From positions 62,001 through 126,000 of the forward strand of contig JAKSKN010000001.1 in the NCBI GenBank assembly GCA_024401695.1: a stretch of DNA of 64,000 nucleotides. The letters run 5' to 3'. Under the pieces are notes generated by a model. That model was not told where the DNA came from and made no database searches. It worked only from the letters and a program-made list of their open reading frames with translations. Source of the stretch: Bacteroidales bacterium. GTDB taxonomy: Bacteria; Bacteroidota; Bacteroidia; Bacteroidales; UBA932. This document shows positions 4,252-14,637 of the stretch, one piece after another (positions within the stretch are counted from its first letter, which is position 1; each line of letters begins with the position of its first letter). The translations under genes were made by a program, and so were the position numbers.

Positions 4252-5238
4252 ATGGACGCAATTATAGGAGAAATACTATCTAGAGCTGTTACTAATCTTG
4301 CTGATACAATAGTAACTGGTGATGAAATCGGCATAGAGATTTATCCTCAAGGTGGTTTGGATGGTGTTATTACCATTCTTGGGTATCCTTTTGCCTGCGA
4401 AGTGAAAAGATCTGTAGTTGCTGCCAACTATAATTCCGTCATCAGCCAGATAAAAAATTATCAAGGCAATATGCCCGTCCTTCTTGTTGCCGGGAAAATC
4501 TCCCGCACATTGATGAAACAAGCAATAAAGGATGGCGTAAACGTATTGGATGCTGCCGGCAATTGCGAAATCCGTGTAGCGGGCACCCCGCTGTTCCTGA
4601 GTATCTCCGGACATACCGATGCCATAAAGATGGGAGGTGAAGGCATCGCCTTCCGTTCCGCCGGCCTCAAAGTACTGTTCTATTTGTTGCAGGATCCGGC
4701 GAATGTCGGTAAACCATATCGCACAATCAAGGAAGAAACGGGAGTGTCACTGGGAACAGTGAAGAATGTCATAGACTCACTTGAAGATCAATATATTCTG
4801 ATATCTTCCGGAGTCCGATATCTGAAAAACAAAAAAGAACTGCTGGACCAGTGGGTAATAAACTATAACAGGACTCTCAAACCAAAACTGTTTTTGGGAA
4901 GGATGAACTTTATTGGTGGATATGAAAAGCAGTGGGACACCATCAAACTTCCCGAAGGAATGTGCTGGGGAGGAGAGTGCGCCTCTTACATTCTGGATGG
5001 CTACCTGTATCCGGAGCGGTATGAAATCTATTCTACAGTACCGTCCAATACATTGACTAAAGCAGGATGCGCTATTCCGTCAGCCGATGGAAATATACAA
5101 GTTTACAAGAAGTTTTGGCTGGATGACACATCGGCTCCGGCCCTTCTGGTATACGCAGATCTGATGGGAAGCGGTGACGGACGTTGCCGCGAAGAAGCAC
5201 AACGTATTTATGACAGAGAACTATCCTATCTCAAGTAG
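4252..5238 (+). CDS. abiEi: AbiEi-family antitoxin / transcriptional repressor (type IV TA)
   Basis: 328 aa. The N-terminal third has a restriction-fold look (DGVITILGYPFACEVKRSV, then VLLVAGKIS and NVLDAAGNCEIRV). It is followed by a winged helix (about 143-205) reading SAGLKVLFYLLQDP, YRTIKEETGVSLGTV and LKNKKELLDQWV. This combination is what I know from PF09952-type AbiEi antitoxins, at about their usual length. In characterised AbiE systems this protein counteracts the AbiEii nucleotidyltransferase and represses the operon. It overlaps the next gene by 29 nt and is preceded by a strong promoter with an inverted repeat. It appears intact, in contrast to the broken genes on either side. Confidence 0.8.
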   Translation: MDAIIGEILSRAVTNLADTIVTGDEIGIEIYPQGGLDGVITILGYPFACEVKRSVVAANYNSVISQIKNYQGNMPVLLVAGKISRTLMKQAIKDGVNVLDAAGNCEIRVAGTPLFLSISGHTDAIKMGGEGIAFRSAGLKVLFYLLQDPANVGKPYRTIKEETGVSLGTVKNVIDSLEDQYILISSGVRYLKNKKELLDQWVINYNRTLKPKLFLGRMNFIGGYEKQWDTIKLPEGMCWGGECASYILDGYLYPERYEIYSTVPSNTLTKAGCAIPSADGNIQVYKKFWLDDTSAPALLVYADLMGSGDGRCREEAQRIYDRELSYLK

Positions 5239-6073
5239 CGCTCTTGCAAATCGTTTTCAAGTTGAGGTGCTGAAGGCGCTTTCTTCCTCATTTAAGGAAA
5301 TGGGGAAAGATTTCATCGTCATAGGGGCAGCATCGAGAGATATCCTCCGAAAATACTTGAAGGCCGAAGCTTCAACTCGAAGGACTAAAGACCTTGATAT
5401 CGCCATCGGAGTAGATACCTGGGACGACTTCTTCCTGATTTCAGAGACACTGCAGTCAAAAGGATTCCGAAAGGATTCTGTGATGAAACAACGGTTCTAT
5501 TTCCAAAATGCGGACTCCGCTGAATATGAAATAGACATTGTCCCGTTCGGAGGTGTTGCAAAAGATGATCAGAACATCTACTGGCCTCCGGAAGAGAATC
5601 CCAGAATGTCCGTCAAAGGCTTCTCATCAGTATTGAAAGATTGCATCAACATAATTGTCGATGACGATTTTTCTTTCAAGATACCCTCAGTTCCGGCATT
5701 CTTCATCCTAAAACTTGATGCATGGACCGACAGACACCTGCTGAATAACAAAGATGCAAAGGACATGTCCTATATCCTGAACAACTACTATCTGCATGAT
5801 GTAACAAAAGGCCTGCATCTTGAGATTTGTGATATCCTGTCGGATAATTTTGATGAATATGTCGCTGGAGCATATATGCTTGCCAATGATATTGCGGCCT
5901 TGCTCAATCCAGAAGAACTAGCTTCGTACCTTCAGGATATCAACTCTGAACTGGCTCTCGCAGAAAACAGTGCGCTGCTTAACGACTGTATGATAGAAGG
6001 CGTGACATTCGATGAAGTCAAGGAAGGGTGGTCAATGATTGCAACAGTTTTTAGAGAAGCCATCGGGAAATGA
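5210..6073 (+). CDS. abiEii: AbiEii-family nucleotidyltransferase toxin
   Basis: 287 aa from the ATG at 5210; the 12-residue longer version lies further inside abiEi. The nucleotidyltransferase core shows FIVIGAASRDIL, then TKDLDIAIGV (the paired acidic residues of the DxD motif) and YEIDIVPFGG (third acidic residue), followed by a helical C-terminal half with ILKLDAWTDR. Related AbiEii/MenT toxins transfer nucleotides to tRNA acceptor ends and stop growth; this is established for the family, not shown here. It overlaps abiEi by 29 nt and shares an ATGA overlap with the PP2C gene, so the three should be made together. Confidence 0.8.
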   Translation: MTENYPISSSALANRFQVEVLKALSSSFKEMGKDFIVIGAASRDILRKYLKAEASTRRTKDLDIAIGVDTWDDFFLISETLQSKGFRKDSVMKQRFYFQNADSAEYEIDIVPFGGVAKDDQNIYWPPEENPRMSVKGFSSVLKDCINIIVDDDFSFKIPSVPAFFILKLDAWTDRHLLNNKDAKDMSYILNNYYLHDVTKGLHLEICDILSDNFDEYVAGAYMLANDIAALLNPEELASYLQDINSELALAENSALLNDCMIEGVTFDEVKEGWSMIATVFREAIGK

Positions 6074-6654
6074 AATACACATCATCATCAAAAGCAGGAA
6101 CGGGCAAGACGAACGAAGACGCAATCCTTGTAATCCAGCCTTCGCTCGAAGAAATCGTTGCAATGGTATGCGATGGAATGGGCGGTTTGGATTTCCCTGA
6201 AATCGCTTCAGAAATAATGGCAACGTCCGTCAAGGATGTTTTCAGTGCTGGAATAAGGGACAATGTTCCGGAACAGATTCACAGCGCCTTCGCTCTCGCG
6301 ACTGAAGAACTTACAAAAGAGTCTGCCAGACGAGGCGCCAGGCTGGGATGTGCCGTTGGAATAGTTGTCATAAAAGCCAAAGTGATGTGGTACTCCAGCA
6401 TAGGCAATGTCAGGATATACCTTACGGAGAGCGATATCACCAAACGTCTCCTGACTCAAGATGACGTCTACACTGATGAAAATGGGATATCATATTTGAC
6501 CAATTGTATAAAAGGAAACGGAAGCATTCCCAACATACAAGTGATGAAGTTAACGCTTCCGGAACATTATATAGTTGAAACCTGTTCTGACGGATACTAC
6601 GAATCCAATCCCATTGACGATTCGTCAATAGTGTCAATCCTACAGACCGATTGA
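6070..6654 (+). CDS. PP2C-family Ser/Thr phosphatase coupled to AbiE
   Basis: 194 aa, shorter than the usual 230-260 aa PrpC-like phosphatase, but motifs from both ends are present: GKTNEDA near the start, VCDGMGGLD, YSSIGNVRIYL (GN instead of GD), VETCSDGYYE, and a terminal IDDSSIVSIL in the position of the family's final acidic pair. The metal-binding aspartates therefore seem retained. The ATGA overlap with abiEii places it third in the operon. The stop codon abuts a truncated ATPase fragment, so the last residues could be altered by a deletion joint. A phosphatase in an AbiE operon is unusual; its substrate might be the toxin, the antitoxin or a host protein. Confidence 0.75.
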   Translation: MKYTSSSKAGTGKTNEDAILVIQPSLEEIVAMVCDGMGGLDFPEIASEIMATSVKDVFSAGIRDNVPEQIHSAFALATEELTKESARRGARLGCAVGIVVIKAKVMWYSSIGNVRIYLTESDITKRLLTQDDVYTDENGISYLTNCIKGNGSIPNIQVMKLTLPEHYIVETCSDGYYESNPIDDSSIVSILQTD

Positions 6655-7507
6655 TTTCGAGAAGATTCTCGGCAATCTGAAACTGATGAACGATGAAGGC
6701 AAGATGACTATGGCCGCCCTGCTGCTGTTCGGCAAGAATCCGCAGGCATACTGCCTCAATGCCAGATTCAAAATCGGCCGGTTCGGCAATGGAGCCGCTG
6801 ATCTCATCACTCAGGATCTTATCGAGGGCAACCTTATCCAGATGGCAGACAAGGTCATCGATGTCCTGTCGGCCAAATATCTTGTAAGACCTATCCACTA
6901 TGAAGGGATGCAGCGCGTGGAGCCTCTTGAGATTCCGGAGAAGGGACTCAGGGAGATACTCTACAACAGCATCATTCACAAATCCTACGATGGCCCTGAC
7001 AATCAGATGAAAGTCTATGATGACCGCATCAGCCTTTGGAACTACGGCAAGATGCCGGAAGGCACAACCATCTCTGATATGTTCAAGGAGCATCGTTCGA
7101 TGCCGAGGAACAAGCTTATCGCAAACGCCTTCTTCCACGCCGGCTTTGTGGAAGCCTGGGGCCGCGGCTTTGAAATCATCGAGGAATCGTTCAAGAACGC
7201 AGAACTTGAAGTTCCGCAGTTCGTTGAAGAGTTCAGCGGTGTGACGGTAAATATCAAGCGAGAGGTCTTCGCCGCCATTCAGCACGGGGCCAGAATCGAC
7301 GACAGGACCGGCAAGGTGGTGAATGCTTCCTATGACACCAATGATGTTACCAAAACCACGAGCTCAATTGCTATCAAACTTGGCGTTTCATCAAGGACAA
7401 TAAAGAGAGATCTGAAGGTTCTTCAGGACCTTGGGTATATTGAGCATTGCATACTTGAAACATCTTGCGAGAGGCGCCCACTGGGTGCCTCTTTGCTTAT
7501 GCTGTAA
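6648..7507 (+). pseudogene. Truncated AlbA_2/HATPase_c_4-type regulator, N-terminus missing
   Basis: The frame reads PIDFEKILGNLKLM, then MAALLLFGKNPQAYCLNARFK and EKGLREILYNSIIHKSYD (ATPase N-box-like), HRSMPRNKLIANAFFHAGFVEAWGRGFEII and a C-terminal helix-turn-helix (about 7365-7440). This is the ATPase and wHTH part of the large family of RecG-like putative transcriptional regulators. The N-terminal AlbA_2 (Schlafen-like) domain is absent and the frame begins inside the PP2C gene. The first ATG is at 6686. The last 15 residues (CERRPLGASLLML) look foreign. Probably a deletion product, although a shortened protein could still be made. Confidence 0.65.
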
Positions 7508-8331: not shown

Positions 8332-8637
8332 TTGGATGACATCGCCGAAATCGTATCCGGGAAACATTCAATCCAGCAGTGTATGGACATCATACTCGGC
8401 TCGATGGCATTTATGCTCAACAAGCATAACGAAGAAGTCCCTGAAGGGCAGACGGAGCGCGGAAAGAGAACCATAGCAAAGGAGAAACTGTTCTTCCACA
8501 TACTCGGCCACATACGTGCACTGAAAGGCTACGAGAATTTTCCAGATATACTGTGACACTCCTGCAGAGGGGCCTGTGGACTACTGGAAGCATCCGTACC
8601 GTCATTGGTCGTTCCTTGCCAGCGAGTTTGTAAAATA
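8332..8637 (+). other. Unrecognised short frames, probably gene debris
   Basis: An open frame of 74 codons (8332-8556, TTG start; the first ATG is near 8380) reads VSGKHSIQQCMDIILG and ends KGYENFPDIL. A second frame, with no start, ends at 8637 with VDYWKHPYRHWSFLASEFVK. I recognise neither. Both stop before the small-RNA locus and are probably 3' ends of displaced genes. Confidence 0.3.
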
Positions 8638-8710
8638 GAAAAAGCCCCGCTTATGCTACATAAACCGCTCAAGTGGAACTAGAGCCTTCGCATAGGAGTA
8701 GGACTTTTCT
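8638..8710 (-). ncRNA. Small structured RNA, copy 1 of a tandem pair
   Basis: A minus-strand promoter (TTTG 8744-8741, 18 nt, TACCTTTG 8722-8715) should start RNA near 8710. The RNA folds as a closing stem GAAAAGUCC with GGGGCUUUUUC (one bulge), an inner stem UAUGC/GCAUA, and a hairpin CUCUAGU-UCC-ACUUGAG (one U-U mismatch). It ends in a U-rich run at about 8640. Copy 2, 115 bp upstream, keeps this architecture with different paired bases, so base pairing has been conserved while sequence changed. There is no open frame. The family is not one I recognise. Confidence 0.65.
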
Positions 8711-8714
8711 AACG

Positions 8715-8744
8715 CAAAGGTAAACAAAATTTCTGAAATGCAAA
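8715..8744 (-). promoter_or_regulatory. Promoter of small RNA copy 1
   Basis: TTTG-N18-TACCTTTG on the minus strand. The -33 box begins immediately after the T-run that ends copy 2. Confidence 0.65.
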
Positions 8745-8745
8745 T

Positions 8746-8824
8746 AAAAAAAAGAAAAGCTCCGCCAACACTACTAACCCTCCAAGTAGGAACTTAGAAC
8801 TTCATGTTGCACAGGTCTTTTCTC
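8746..8824 (-). ncRNA. Small structured RNA, copy 2 of a tandem pair
   Basis: Its promoter is TTTG (8859-8856), 18 nt, TATCTTTG (8837-8830). The RNA shows a closing stem GAAAAG/CUUUUC (then CC/GG), an inner stem CAACA/UGUUG where copy 1 has UAUGC/GCAUA, and a hairpin UCUAAGU-UCCU-ACUUGGA. The UCC of the loop is shared with copy 1. It ends at an eight-T run directly before the -33 box of copy 1, so the two units are packed head to tail. Confidence 0.65.
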
Positions 8825-8829
8825 ATCTG

Positions 8830-8859
8830 CAAAGATAGAGAATTTTTCTGAATTCCAAA
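8830..8859 (-). promoter_or_regulatory. Promoter of small RNA copy 2
   Basis: TTTG-N18-TATCTTTG on the minus strand, with the same spacing as the copy 1 promoter. The 18-nt spacers are alike in the two promoters (both contain TTCAGAAA). Confidence 0.65.
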
Positions 8860-8989
8860 CAATATCGTGAATTGTCCTTTCAAACGGATTTCACGTAAAT
8901 ATGTAGCAGAATATTCACATTATTGGCATAACAAGTCGCATTATATGAGGAGTTTTATTAACTTTGTGTGTGCTCAACTGAAAAATGCA

Positions 8990-9214
8990 ATGGCGAAGAA
9001 ACAATTGAATAGAATCAAGGTCGTTCTGGCCGAAAAAAACAAGACAGGAATCTGGTTGGCCCAGCAACTTGGAAAAGACCGCACTACCGTGTCAAAATGG
9101 TGTTCGAATGCAGTTCAGCCATCACTTGAGACAGTTATTGAAATTGCACAATGTCTGGGCGTAGGAGTTGAGGAACTCATACGTATGCCGGAGAAAAATG
9201 AAGGAGGAGAATAG
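8990..9214 (+). CDS. XRE-family helix-turn-helix regulator
   Basis: 74 aa from the ATG at 8990; longer starts add residues with no family resemblance. One HTH_3 domain: IKVVLAEKNKTGIWLAQQLG, KDRTTVSKWCSN, PSLETVIEIAQCLGVGVEEL. A TAACTTTG -7 box lies at 8959-8966, with no good -33 box. Its stop codon directly touches the next start, so it is coupled to the DUF4062-ATPase gene and stands at the head of the type I R-M locus. It is probably an autoregulator of this region, in the manner of R-M controller proteins, but no operator is evident. Confidence 0.85.
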   Translation: MAKKQLNRIKVVLAEKNKTGIWLAQQLGKDRTTVSKWCSNAVQPSLETVIEIAQCLGVGVEELIRMPEKNEGGE

Positions 9215-10741
9215 ATGGTACGAGTTTTCATAAGCAGCGTTCAGAAAGAGTTTTCCGAAGAAAGAAAGGCTCTTGCGAAATATATTCGTGAGGATGCTTT
9301 GCTCCGCAGGTTCTTTGAACCTTTCATTTTTGAAGAGCTGCCGGCAATCAACCTGTCTGCTCCGGAAGCATACTTGGCAGAGGCGGCGCAGAGCGAAATC
9401 TATCTTGGCATATTCGGCAAGGAGTATGGGTATGAGGATGCAGATGGGGTTTCACCCACGGAAAGGGAGTTTGACAAGGCGACCGAGCAAGGAAACCATC
9501 GAATCATTTTCATCAAGCGATGCAGTGAGCGTAATCCCAAAGAAACGAAATTCATAAAGAGAGTTGAGGAGCAGCTCGTACGCAAGGGATTCAATGATTT
9601 TGAAGAACTCCGGACATCTGTCTATTCTTCCCTGATTCGCTTTCTTGAGGATAATGAGTATCTGAGATTCCTGCCTTGGGATGCCTCCCTGCACAGGACT
9701 GCGACTCTCGACGATATTGACAGAGAGAAGGTGAAGTCTTTCGTAGCCCTTGCAAAAGAAAAACGAGGGTTCCCGCTGGATTATTCGGATGATAACCTGC
9801 TGAAGATTCTGGTGCATCTGGACCTGGCCACCGCTGAAGGACGGCTTACGAATGCAGCCCTGCTGCTTTTCGCAAAGAATCCGCAGCATTTCTTCCTGAC
9901 AACGGAGGTGAAGTGCGTGGTGTTCCCGACTACAGTGAAGACGAAGCCGCTGCTGTCGTATCAGACATTCAGAGGCAGCATCTTTGAACTTGTTGATGAG
10001 GCTGTCGGTTTCGTTATGCAGCATATCGATGCGGCGGTAAGTGTTCATAACAAGGCAGCTGTCGATGTTGAATATGAGATTCCAATCAAGGCAGTGCGCG
10101 AAGTGATTGTGAACGCCATCGTACATTGTCAGAACGAAAGTAATGCAAGCGTTGAGGTGATGCTCTTCAAGGACAGGCTCGAAGTCTGGAATCCTGGGAC
10201 TCTTCCTCAAGGGCTCACTCTGGACAGCTTGAAAGGTGTACACAACTCCATTCCGGCGAACCCGATTATCGCTCTGCCGGCGTATCTTGCCGGATATATC
10301 GAGAGGCTTGGGACAGGAACCACCGATGTCGTCGAGACCTGCGTGGCAGCCGGCCTTCCTACGCCCGAATACAAACAGGAGCAGAACCATTTCATATCCG
10401 TCATCTGGAGGAAGATGCCCGATGCGAATGGCCCCCAAAGTGGCCCCCAATATCTGATTGATAATAAAGACATTGACAATACCGATTCACAAAGTGGCCC
10501 TCAATATGGCCCCCAAAGTGGCCCCCAAGGAAAACTCGCTCAAAGATACCGCGGACTGCTGGAAACAATAGTTGCAAAACCGACAATCAGCAAAGAAGAT
10601 CTGGCAGCACAATTCAAGATATCCCTGACCACTTTGAAAAGAGACCTGAGAAGTCTGCGTCAATCCTATGAAATCACGTGGATAGGATGGACACAGAACG
10701 GCCATTGGGAGGTCAAGGAGTTGGAAAAGAAGAAACAGTAA
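9215..10741 (+). CDS. DUF4062 - HATPase_c_4 - winged-helix protein
   Basis: 508 aa. The N-terminal 85 residues are a DUF4062 domain (RVFISSVQKEFSEERKAL, then AQSEIYLGIFGKEYG), a Rossmann-like fold related to TIR/SIR-type sensor domains. Residues of about 185-390 form the ATPase part (NAALLLFAKNPQ, KAVREVIVNAIVH, YIERLGTGTTDVVE). A short Gly-Pro-Gln repeat linker follows (about 409-450), then a C-terminal winged helix (ISKEDLAAQFKISLTTLKRDL). The usual AlbA_2 domain is replaced by DUF4062. It sits between an XRE gene and hsdR. Most likely a regulator or accessory defence protein of the R-M locus; the function is not proven. Confidence 0.75.
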   Translation: MVRVFISSVQKEFSEERKALAKYIREDALLRRFFEPFIFEELPAINLSAPEAYLAEAAQSEIYLGIFGKEYGYEDADGVSPTEREFDKATEQGNHRIIFIKRCSERNPKETKFIKRVEEQLVRKGFNDFEELRTSVYSSLIRFLEDNEYLRFLPWDASLHRTATLDDIDREKVKSFVALAKEKRGFPLDYSDDNLLKILVHLDLATAEGRLTNAALLLFAKNPQHFFLTTEVKCVVFPTTVKTKPLLSYQTFRGSIFELVDEAVGFVMQHIDAAVSVHNKAAVDVEYEIPIKAVREVIVNAIVHCQNESNASVEVMLFKDRLEVWNPGTLPQGLTLDSLKGVHNSIPANPIIALPAYLAGYIERLGTGTTDVVETCVAAGLPTPEYKQEQNHFISVIWRKMPDANGPQSGPQYLIDNKDIDNTDSQSGPQYGPQSGPQGKLAQRYRGLLETIVAKPTISKEDLAAQFKISLTTLKRDLRSLRQSYEITWIGWTQNGHWEVKELEKKKQ

Positions 10742-10809: not shown

Positions 10810-13119
10810 ATGGAAGACATTCGCAATCTCTCCGAGGAGGACATAAAGCTCCGGTACATCACTCCGGCGGTAAATTCTGCCGGGTGGGATAACGACCATA
10901 TCCGGATGGAGTATTTCTTTACGGACGGCAGAGTTATAGTCCAAGGAAACCAGCACGGACGCAAGGCTCGCAAGAAAGCAGATTATGTGCTATTCGCGGC
11001 TCCAAATCAACCTATTGCCATTGTGGAGGCCAAGGACAACAACAAGCCCGTTGGCGGTGGTCTGCAGCAAGCAATGGAGTATGCTGAAATCCTGGATATT
11101 CCTTTTGCGTTCTCTTCCAACGGCAGCGGCTTTATTGAGCACGACTTTCTAACCGGTGGAGAAAGGGAAATCAAGATGAATGAGTTCCCGAAACCTGATG
11201 AATTGAAGGCGCGGCTTGCCGAGTTCAAGAACTTCACTCCGGAGCAGCAGAAGATAGTCGATACACCTTTCTATTGGGACAGGTACACAAATACACCAAG
11301 GTATTATCAACGCATTGCAGTAAACAGGACCGTTGAAGCTATCGCCAAGGGTGAGAACAGGATTCTTCTTGTGATGGCCACCGGTACAGGTAAAACATTC
11401 ACGGCTTTCCAGATAATCCACAGGCTGATAAGCTCCGGTGCAAAGAAAAAAGTCCTTTATCTCGCAGACCGCAATGTTTTGATTGACCAGACAATGGTTC
11501 AGGACTTCAAGCCGCTGAAGAAGATAATGACCAAGATAAAGCATCGTGAGATGGACTCCGCATTCGAGGTCTATATGGCGCTTTATCAGCAGCTGGTGTC
11601 TTATGATCCGGAGGTTCTTGACCCTTTCAAGGAGTTTGCTCCGTCGTTCTTTGATCTTATCATTGTGGATGAGTGTCATAGGGGCAGCGCGAAGGATGAT
11701 TCCGAATGGAGAAAGGTTCTGGAGTATTTCTCCGATGCGACTCAAATCGGTATGACCGCTACGCCAAAGGCCGTAGCCGGTGCCGATAATCTTGCATATT
11801 TCAACGAGCCTCTTTATACATACTCTCTCCGTCAGGGAATTGAAGACGGCTTCCTTGCTCCGTACAGGGTAACGAACTCTTTCATCAACATAGACCTTGA
11901 AGGCTGGTGTCCGGAGGAAGGCGAAGAAGATATTGACGGCAAGCTCATCGAGTCCGGCTTCTATAGCCGCCAGAACTTCGGACGGGACATCGCCATTCTT
12001 GAGAGGCGGAATATCGTGGCCAGAAGAATCACCAAGATGCTTCACAAGATTGGCCGTATGACCAAGACCATTGTGTTCTGCAGCGATATCGAGGAAGCCG
12101 AGGCAATGAGGGAACTTCTGGTGGAACTCAACAAGGACCTTTGCCAAAGGGATTCAAGATATGTTATGAGAATCACAGGCGATGACAATGTCGGCAAGAA
12201 GCAGCTTGACAATTTCATTGACCCTGACCAGGACTACCCTACCGTTGTCACCACATCGGAACTTCTTTCTACCGGTGTTGACTGCAAGACCTGCGGCCTT
12301 ATAGTCATAGACAAGGAAATAGGCTCGATGACCGAATTCAAGCAAATCGTCGGACGTGGTACCCGACTGAAGACTGACAAGGGCAAATGGCATTTCGAGA
12401 TACTGGACTTCCGCAATGCCACTCAACTCTTCAAGGATCCTGAATTTGACGGTGATCCGGAACTGTCAACACAAAATAGTGTCTCCGGATATAAGCCGAA
12501 GCCGTCCAGGAATGGAGAACTCCACGATGACAATGAGCCGCGCTATGGCCATTCAAAATACCACGTTGACGGTGTTGAGGTTCAGATTGATACAGAGAAG
12601 GTGTCATATCTGGGAACTGACGGCCATACTCTTGTGACGGAGAGCCTCACGGATTTCACCAGAAAGAATATACGCGGTAAATATGCCACTCTTGACGATT
12701 TTATCAAGAATTGGTCTGAGGCTGACAGGAAGAAGGTTATTGTTGAGGAATTGAAAGAGTACAATGTCCTAATCGATGCGCTCCGGGAATCCAATCCGGA
12801 ACTTGCCAATGCGGACATCTTTGATATCGTATGCCACATTGCTTTCGACAAGAAGCCGCTCACCCGCAGGGAAAGGGCGAACAATGTGAAGAAGAGCGAT
12901 TATCTAAGCAAGTATGAAGGAATGGCCAGACAGGTTCTGGAAACCCTTCTTGACAAATACGCCGATAACGGCATACTTGAATTGGAGCGGCTTGACATTT
13001 TGGTGCTCAGACCTTTCAGCGATTATGGCACTCCAGTGAAGATTATGAAGCTCTTTGGAGGCCGCAATGGATATGAGTCCGCCATCAAGGGACTTGAGAA
13101 ACGATTATACGCAGCATAA
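10810..13119 (+). CDS. hsdR: Type I restriction enzyme, R subunit
   Basis: 769 aa. The N-terminal nuclease domain shows KADYVLF and IAIVEAK (PD-(D/E)xK pattern, residues about 57-78). The SF2 translocase follows with Walker A VMATGTGKTFTA, DECHRGS (motif II), MTATPKA (motif III) and QIVGRGTRLKTDKGK (motif VI). The C-terminal helical domain reads ITRR-like KPLTRRERANNVKKSDYL. It uses ATP to translocate DNA and cleaves unmodified DNA when assembled with HsdM and HsdS. It is 68 nt after the DUF4062 gene and 6 nt before hsdM. It appears complete. Confidence 0.93.
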   Translation: MEDIRNLSEEDIKLRYITPAVNSAGWDNDHIRMEYFFTDGRVIVQGNQHGRKARKKADYVLFAAPNQPIAIVEAKDNNKPVGGGLQQAMEYAEILDIPFAFSSNGSGFIEHDFLTGGEREIKMNEFPKPDELKARLAEFKNFTPEQQKIVDTPFYWDRYTNTPRYYQRIAVNRTVEAIAKGENRILLVMATGTGKTFTAFQIIHRLISSGAKKKVLYLADRNVLIDQTMVQDFKPLKKIMTKIKHREMDSAFEVYMALYQQLVSYDPEVLDPFKEFAPSFFDLIIVDECHRGSAKDDSEWRKVLEYFSDATQIGMTATPKAVAGADNLAYFNEPLYTYSLRQGIEDGFLAPYRVTNSFINIDLEGWCPEEGEEDIDGKLIESGFYSRQNFGRDIAILERRNIVARRITKMLHKIGRMTKTIVFCSDIEEAEAMRELLVELNKDLCQRDSRYVMRITGDDNVGKKQLDNFIDPDQDYPTVVTTSELLSTGVDCKTCGLIVIDKEIGSMTEFKQIVGRGTRLKTDKGKWHFEILDFRNATQLFKDPEFDGDPELSTQNSVSGYKPKPSRNGELHDDNEPRYGHSKYHVDGVEVQIDTEKVSYLGTDGHTLVTESLTDFTRKNIRGKYATLDDFIKNWSEADRKKVIVEELKEYNVLIDALRESNPELANADIFDIVCHIAFDKKPLTRRERANNVKKSDYLSKYEGMARQVLETLLDKYADNGILELERLDILVLRPFSDYGTPVKIMKLFGGRNGYESAIKGLEKRLYAA

Positions 13120-13125
13120 CAGGAT

Positions 13126-14637
13126 ATGGCAGTAAACAATCTCGTCAAGAGAATTCAGAATATTATGCGGCAGGATGCCGGCATAAACGGTGATGCCCAA
13201 CGCATCGAACAGATGGTATGGATGTTCTTCTTGAAGGTCTATGACGCACAGGAGGAGATATGGGAATGCACGAAGGAAGAAGGATACACTTCGATTATTC
13301 CTGAAGAGTACCGCTGGAGGAATTGGGCTGTCGATAATGCTGACGGCAAGGCTCTCACAGGCGATGCGCTGCTCAAGTTCATCAATGAAGAGCTGTTCCC
13401 TGCTATGAAGAATCTGCCGGTGGATGAGAATACACCTCGCGGAAAAGCCATTGTAAAAGAGGTTTTCGAAGACCTCAACCAGTATATGAAGAACGGCATT
13501 TCGCTCCGCCAGGTCATCAATGTAATCGATGAGATTGACTTTTCGGACGCGGAAGACCGCCACACTTTCGGTGATATCTACGAGGGAATACTCAAGGATC
13601 TGCAATCTGCAGGAAACGCCGGAGAGTTCTATACTCCCCGTGCGTTGACGGACTTTATGGTCCAGACTCTTTCCCCGAAGCTCGGAGAGTCATTCGGTGA
13701 TTTCACGTCCGGAACCGGCGGATTCCTTACCTCTGCACTCAATTTCCTGAAACCGCAGATCAAGAATGTTTCTGACGAGAAAAAATTCCAGTCTTCGGTT
13801 GTAGGCCAGGAATGGAAGCCTCTTCCTTATCTTCTCTCCATCACGAACCTGCTGGTGCACGACATAGAAGCTCCTAACATCAAGCACTGCGATTCTCTCG
13901 GTACCAAGATGAGCGATTTCAAGGATGCCGACAAGGTGGATGTAATTGCGATGAATCCGCCTTACGGAGGCAGCACGGAAGCCAGCGTGAAGGGCAATTT
14001 CCCTATGGATATGCGCTCAAGCGAGACTGCCGACCTCTTTATGGTCCTGATAATGTACCGCTTGAAAAAGGCAGGGCGCGCTGCCGTCATTGTTCCGGAC
14101 GGATTCCTGTTCGGCGTTGATGGCGCCAAGCTGGCCATCAAGACCAAGATGCTTCGCGAGTTCAACCTCCACACAATTATCAGGCTTCCCGGGAGCATCT
14201 TCTCTCCATACACCAGCATTGCGACCAACGTCCTTTTCTTCAACAATGAAAAGGCGGAAGGCGCAGGGGCGAATTTCAACACCAAGGAAACCTGGTTCTA
14301 TCGTCTCGATATGCCGGATGGCTATAAGCACTTCTCCAAGACCAAACCGATGAAACTGGAGCATACTGCTCCCATTCAGGAATGGTGGAATGATCGCAAG
14401 GAAATCGCCAGTGAGGAGATTGGTGAGAAATCACGTGTATTCACGGCTGAAGAGCTGATTGCGATGGACTGCAACTTCGACCAGTGCAAGTTCCCGAAAG
14501 ACGATGAAGAAATCCTGCCGCCTGCAGAACTGCTTGCCGACTACTTCAAGAAGCGCAAGGCTCTGGACCACGAGATAGACAAGACCCTTGCCGAAATTCA
14601 GCAGATTCTCGGGATTGAAATCAAGAACGAAGACTAG
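13126..14637 (+). CDS. hsdM: Type I modification methyltransferase, M subunit
   Basis: 503 aa. An HsdM N-terminal helical domain is followed by an N6-adenine methylase: GEFYTPRALTDFMV, DFTSGTGGFLTS (SAM-binding motif I position), VDVIAMNPPYGGS (catalytic NPPY) and AVIVPDGFLFG. It methylates adenine in the target chosen by HsdS. It is 6 nt from hsdR and 9 nt from hsdS, one transcription unit. It appears complete. Confidence 0.95.
   Translation: MAVNNLVKRIQNIMRQDAGINGDAQRIEQMVWMFFLKVYDAQEEIWECTKEEGYTSIIPEEYRWRNWAVDNADGKALTGDALLKFINEELFPAMKNLPVDENTPRGKAIVKEVFEDLNQYMKNGISLRQVINVIDEIDFSDAEDRHTFGDIYEGILKDLQSAGNAGEFYTPRALTDFMVQTLSPKLGESFGDFTSGTGGFLTSALNFLKPQIKNVSDEKKFQSSVVGQEWKPLPYLLSITNLLVHDIEAPNIKHCDSLGTKMSDFKDADKVDVIAMNPPYGGSTEASVKGNFPMDMRSSETADLFMVLIMYRLKKAGRAAVIVPDGFLFGVDGAKLAIKTKMLREFNLHTIIRLPGSIFSPYTSIATNVLFFNNEKAEGAGANFNTKETWFYRLDMPDGYKHFSKTKPMKLEHTAPIQEWWNDRKEIASEEIGEKSRVFTAEELIAMDCNFDQCKFPKDDEEILPPAELLADYFKKRKALDHEIDKTLAEIQQILGIEIKNED

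Follow-up and report, generated by a model that had tools for sequence, protein, structure and literature searches.

In type III toxin-antitoxin systems the antitoxin consists of RNA repeats that are transcribed together with the toxin gene. The nucleases TnpB and IscB are partnered by an omega RNA, and RNA-guided nucleases of this kind use a variable guide segment beyond the conserved scaffold. The DUF3800-VIII RNA, one of the DUF3800 RNA motifs and reportedly first described by Weinberg et al. in 2017, is catalogued in Rfam as RF03075, where no function assigned to it could be found. The next sections discuss two such RNAs encoded in a 64,000-nt stretch of DNA from a Bacteroidales bacterium (contig JAKSKN010000001.1, positions 62,001 to 126,000), the whole of which is called the window. 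The passages on DUF3800 examined in the open-access literature do not name DUF3800-VIII, and no text joining DUF3800 with RNase HII and an antitoxin was found in that literature.

It is almost certain that the window encodes, on its minus strand, two DUF3800-VIII RNAs belonging to different subtypes, and that the one nearer to the decayed partner gene, DUF3800, faces the end of that gene. As in the known family, the window RNAs reach the curated score over the full model, share the same two-helix structure and adjoin DUF3800; the differences are that the partner gene is a pseudogene, that two subtypes stand in tandem and that copy 2 barely passes. The window copies are therefore new members of a catalogued family, to which this analysis adds a layout rule, a lopsided loss of the protein, phage copies without the protein and a predicted RNase HII-like fold. 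Together, these make the RNA part of a testable two-component module.

Two RNA genes of different subtypes

In an Rfam scan of the window both copies scored above the RF03075 gathering score of 40.2 bits, copy 1 with an E-value of 9e-7 and copy 2 marginally (40.3 bits, E = 6.5e-4). A preliminary description, made from the sequence alone, could name no family for the pair and had listed a match to a described family as a refutation of its reading; RF03075 is such a match. The two minus-strand structured units themselves lie where that description had placed them, 115 nt apart (8756-8641), with the stems and loops it gave, and each is closed by a stem and then a U-run. A covariance model built only from the 12 phage/viral sequences of alignment A2 (R1) recovers copy 1 (46.1 bits, E = 8e-9) and does not recover copy 2, and a search of the whole genome found no third copy.

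The same description had proposed that the RNA structure is under selection, which is well supported by A2, an alignment not fitted to a model. In A2 85.2% of the cells pair versus 67.6% after shuffling, 61 cells have both partners changed without loss of pairing versus 20.2 in the shuffles, and the covariation score is 0.588 versus 0.234; pairing falls to 44-49% when the partner is shifted by one base. An alignment of 57 matches fitted by the model, and thus biased towards structure, gives a covariation score of 0.590 versus 0.221 in shuffles, and its pairs with a double change are not above the shuffles (19 vs 18.5). G-U cells exceed A-C cells in both alignments (39 vs 5 on A2, 126 vs 46 on the fitted one), indicating that the minus strand of the window, which is the RNA strand, is the folded one. 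GAA, GU, CC and UAG are invariant among 24 chromosomal and phage RNAs, and both window copies keep the conserved two-helix structure with its covariation. On the mixed alignment A1, RNAalifold returned no more than nine outer-stem pairs, probably owing to the inserted base that sets the subtypes apart, and the folding-energy z-scores are modest (copy 1, -1.54; copy 2, -2.89).

Each window RNA has a predicted Bacteroidota-type promoter of its own, TAnnTTTG and TTTG separated by a spacer of 18, as previously proposed for both copies. TAnnTTTG occurs 5-12 nt upstream of the RNA exactly at 23 of 37 Bacteroidota places and with at most one mismatch at 30 (shuffled means, 0.28 and 4.1), a distance range that was picked after viewing the sequences and a set in which some places are near-copies. 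The RNA of genome G074 lacks this box; a tRNA-Ala gene ends 9-10 nt upstream instead, with no box between, so that this RNA may come from the tRNA transcript. This tRNA gene is missing from the six regions compared with G074.

Judged by eye, L112, L094 and G106 have RNAs like copy 1 (subtype A), and G142, G337 and G415 have RNAs like copy 2 (subtype B). The preliminary description had presented the pair as two tandem copies. Local tandem duplication was rejected, also by eye, because each copy is nearer to RNAs elsewhere, so that the two are better described as two subtypes. A true tandem pair of one subtype occurs in L093, with a long DUF3800 frame. The sister locus in G087 has copy 1 and the same upstream flank, but lacks the segment of about 163 nt that contains copy 2 and has about 20 nt instead; by blastn, window positions 8612-8744 and 8912-8968 match L033. 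The segment may have been gained in the window or lost at G087. The subtype B rows require two changes on the DUF3800 tree, which has few rows and long branches and from which L082 and L162, both open frames, were left out because the motif search missed them. A strict subtype B pattern had no match in viral contigs, the two-copy segment gave only short matches to phage records (E of 0.02 or worse), and the consensus RNA gave no plasmid match.

The DUF3800 partner and its loss

The RNA and DUF3800 are typically convergent, the gene running towards the RNA, in the Bacteroidota relatives, in viral contig L136 and in Riemerella phages. At the 22 convergent loci with a long frame that were measured, one of which (L036) is truncated where its contig stops, the distance between the DUF3800 stop codon and the 3' end of the RNA ranges from -3 to +24 nt. 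DUF3800 similarity was detected by tblastn within 1.5 kb at 32 of 59 RNA places, always on the 3' side and in 31 cases antisense; the other 27 include three places with short flanks (L146, L134 and L039) that count as uninformative. The lone same-strand case, L087, is on a contig from Synergistaceae that also has a phage antirepressor gene. The proteins of L136 and L087 match PF12686 above the curated score, and PF12686 is matched in 7 of the 16 RNA-bearing genomes of the genus, beside the RNA in 5 of the 7. Fourteen Riemerella records encode a 40%-identical DUF3800 protein, and in each of the three examined the RNA lies 8-9 nt past the DUF3800 stop (34.8 Rfam bits, below the cut-off; 31.1 bits with R1, E = 1.7e-5). 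These phages are closely related and therefore represent one independent case, not three. The DUF3800 match in record OQ791282.1, labelled Shigella phage Henu10, has coordinates identical to those in the record of Riemerella phage PT15, and the Shigella label may be wrong. At L041:2824-3946 (genome G143) a weak DUF3800-VIII RNA (33.4 bits) is convergent with the PDDEXK protein of the PADLOC candidate PDC-S02.

The convergent position, together with the A-run and U-run that flank the stem in the Bacteroidota copies, is what would be expected if the RNA were only a cis element, such as a bidirectional terminator or an RNA antisense to the DUF3800 message at its 3' end. That is highly improbable, given the conserved unpaired bases, the RNA's promoter, the strand-specific G-U pairs, the same-strand arrangement in L087 and the orphan RNAs with no DUF3800 nearby.

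In the window, the stop codon of the DUF3800 remnant (8638-8640) abuts copy 1. A plus-strand open reading frame (ORF) at 8332-8556 and a second frame reaching 8640 match the C-terminal part of the DUF3800 that adjoins the RNA in relatives; the earlier claim that there is no ORF thus holds inside the RNAs and fails directly beside copy 1. The intact locus of Candidatus Cryptobacteroides aphodequi (L112) is 92.7% identical in DNA to window positions 8333-8745, and its protein aligns with the remnant by tblastn at 94% identity over residues 171-240 and 100% over residues 240-271. The remnant itself, the C-terminal third of the gene, has no Pfam match. With the first 170 residues gone and the frame disrupted, no DUF3800 protein should be produced from the locus, and from its sequence the RNA appears here to have outlived its partner gene. 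A full DUF3800 is present on another contig of the same genome (C44), with no RNA match within the stretch examined.

The same pattern recurs in relatives. Among 36 informative Bacteroidota loci, 17 have a long DUF3800 frame (one cut by a contig end), 10, including the window, have a remnant or interrupted frame and 9 have none by tblastn; one further locus was uninformative. Two loci with no tblastn trace, G087 and L101, keep short DNA traces. The leftover is C-terminal and adjoins the RNA at 7 of the 10 remnant loci, and the others are interrupted (L107), scrambled (L040) or cut by a contig end (L035). The median Rfam score is 49.4 for orphan or remnant RNAs (n = 15) and 49.4 beside a long gene (n = 7), a comparison from which badly decayed orphans are missing because only RNAs above the search threshold are visible. 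On the protein side, all five long DUF3800 homologues among 151 genomes of the genus have the RNA, as do three of the four (RNA above the cut-off) among 393 genomes of the order and 395 of the phylum; in the fourth, L154, the gene carries an in-frame stop codon and the RNA is reduced to an 18.6-bit remnant. A fragmented DUF3800 gene with an RNA remnant of 18.1 bits occurs in G721. No clean site empty of the whole module was found for G074 and G044 among the relatives compared, because these share flanks on one side only.

One explanation is that DUF3800 works as an active ribonucleoprotein with the RNA as its indispensable cofactor or guide, as the omega RNA is for TnpB or IscB, so that orphans serve in trans or are dying. 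This is rather unlikely, since the detected orphans keep full scores, RNA without the protein occurs on phage contigs, and the Bacteroidota RNAs end in their own closing stem and U-run with no obvious guide. Several phage copies have no clear U-run, and a guide is less improbable there.

The preliminary description had placed the RNAs beside defence-gene debris. The neighbourhood is indeed defence-like (Table 1), and the debris includes the RNA's own partner gene. More defence-like neighbours lie at 4252-7507: an AbiEi-type antitoxin (PF09952) and an overlapping frame with a weak PADLOC match to PDC-M21B, followed by PP2C and HATPase_c_4 frames. Elsewhere, at L102:3-1653, an orphan RNA is found 40 nt upstream of a MazG-like gene, behind which comes a Schlafen group 3 helicase gene. 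At L103:217-5555, in a record labelled Paludibacter, an RNA separates hsdR from an unknown gene, and beside the latter is an hsdS-like gene of a type I restriction locus.

Table 1. Coordinates of the RNA genes and associated features (window positions unless a locus is named)
Feature	Position	Strand	Basis
DUF3800-VIII RNA copy 1 (subtype A: GTTCCAC loop arm, TTTATGTAG internal-loop strand)	8641..8707	-	RF03075, 51.9 bits, model 1-64
DUF3800-VIII RNA copy 2 (subtype B: GTTCCTAC, TTAGTAG)	8756..8820	-	RF03075, 40.3 bits, model 1-64
Predicted promoter of copy 1: TTTG 8741-8744, N18, TACCTTTG 8715-8722	8715..8744	-	motif scan
Predicted promoter of copy 2: TTTG 8856-8859, N18, TATCTTTG 8830-8837	8830..8859	-	motif scan
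Segment with copy 2 and its promoter, edges approximate	8745..8907		missing at sister locus G087 (alignment A4)
DUF3800 pseudogene, C-terminal remnant, first ~170 residues missing, frame changes inside	8333..8640	+	tblastn/blastn against L112
HTH_3/HTH_26 regulator ORF (true start probably further in)	8867..9214	+	neighbouring gene
DUF4062 and HATPase_c_4 protein	9215..10741	+	neighbouring gene
Type I restriction-modification hsdR and hsdM	10810..14637	+	neighbouring genes
tRNA-Ala gene and RNA at G074	L038:6950-7097		no promoter box between

RNA copies in phages

A looser pattern was applied to viral contigs, and two phage records were added. The resulting 16 sources comprise the two records and 14 of 20 viral stretches, L135, L137, L143 and L148 being left out as the same stretch as L133, and L132 and L149 because they looked like chance matches. 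RF03075 scored above its cut-off in 15 of the 16. L145 has no Rfam match, yet reaches 36.2 bits with R1, and the RNA of L163 was missed by R1 though found by Rfam. By tblastn, DUF3800 was detected in L136 only, the downstream flank being too short in L146 and L134, and at 14 phage-side places the RNA stands without DUF3800. In viral contig L146 a skipping-rope RNA (RF02924, 50.5 bits) precedes the DUF3800-VIII RNA by about 100 nt on the same strand (1104-1198 and 1301-1366). In Rhizobium phage RHph_Y25 a Y RNA-like match (YrlA, 34.9 vs 69 bits; L166:3079-3141) directly follows a DUF3800-VIII-like RNA of 39.4 bits, slightly under the cut-off.

The phage contigs lacking DUF3800 raise the question of whether the RNA has a function of its own in phages and hosts, with DUF3800 as a passenger or a homing-type nuclease that settles behind it. 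Near these RNAs are genes for a head protease, a methyltransferase, a primase and an endolysin, with a terminase further off and unknown proteins. An independent RNA would also agree with the sharp end of similarity at the RNA, with the gain or loss of copy 2 as a unit, and with Bacillus subtilis, one of 14 control genomes, which matches RF03075 and not PF12686. We nevertheless consider it unlikely, since every long close homologue found is accompanied by the RNA, save the one in which both are decayed, and the phage loci scanned have no recurrent neighbouring gene in common.

Proposed role and comparison with known systems

The reading that we favour, tentatively and as somewhat less than probable, is that the RNA restrains a DUF3800 nuclease in a protein-RNA defence or toxin-antitoxin-like module and that orphan copies are antidotes. 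It starts from what was observed of the family, its partner, the convergent layout, the promoter, the covariation, the orphaning and the phage carriage, and from the predicted structure of DUF3800, which resembles RNase HII over the catalytic domain. The protein may accordingly be a metal-dependent nuclease of RNase HII-like fold; the model resembles RNase HII/RNase H2 in fold, but with 14% sequence identity in that alignment. The RNA would use its conserved GAAG, GUUCC and GUAG bases to bind the protein and hold it inactive, or would serve as a decoy for it. If loss of the protein is harmless and loss of the RNA first is not, RNAs would persist as orphans, and an orphan RNA, or an extra one of another subtype as in the window, could act like a solitary antitoxin, shielding the cell or phage that carries it when DUF3800 modules enter. 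Expression, binding, inhibition and protection are thus the steps that we infer. The lopsided loss, the extra subtype and the protein-less phage copies would fit a protective RNA better than one that the nuclease merely uses. A fuller version is doubtful: the RNA would be a portable antidote to an RNase HII-like defence nuclease, accumulated by bacteria in anti-addiction arrays of orphans that belong to several subtypes (two in the window) and carried alone by phages for counter-defence.

Several points weigh against a restraining RNA. Its linkage to DUF3800 is partly built in, as the Rfam family was named for DUF3800, and in G143 it faces a PDC-S02/PDDEXK gene instead. Loci were sampled partly from RNA patterns and Rfam scores, which biases the retained score upward, and several are near-copies; orphan retention may just reflect recent loss, or an RNA that moves alone. 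Four distant DUF3800 proteins (E of 1e-12 to 1e-14), a weak one in G084 (E = 1.5e-7) and one on a Citrobacter plasmid (26%) have no such RNA, although the distant proteins may belong to other subfamilies. Finally, repeats co-transcribed with a toxin, which characterize the type III RNA, were not found for the DUF3800-VIII RNA, which is convergent and mostly single. Should the RNA nonetheless prove to be an antidote, DUF3800 would represent a further type of RNA-inhibited defence nuclease, one for which phages carry RNA mimics.

The DUF3800-VIII RNA resembles the omega RNA of TnpB and IscB in that a nuclease gene adjoins a structured RNA in mobile contexts; it differs in that no guide segment is seen in the Bacteroidota copies, the RNA lies on the opposite strand and the RNA itself is different. 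In the type III system ToxIN a structured RNA restrains a nuclease, and phage phiTE carries the RNA alone as a pseudo-ToxI (PMC3475682). The likeness to ToxIN and pseudo-ToxI is one of proposed logic, an RNA restraining a nuclease and a phage-borne RNA alone, whereas DUF3800-VIII differs in its convergent layout, its mostly single copies and its predicted RNase HII-like fold.
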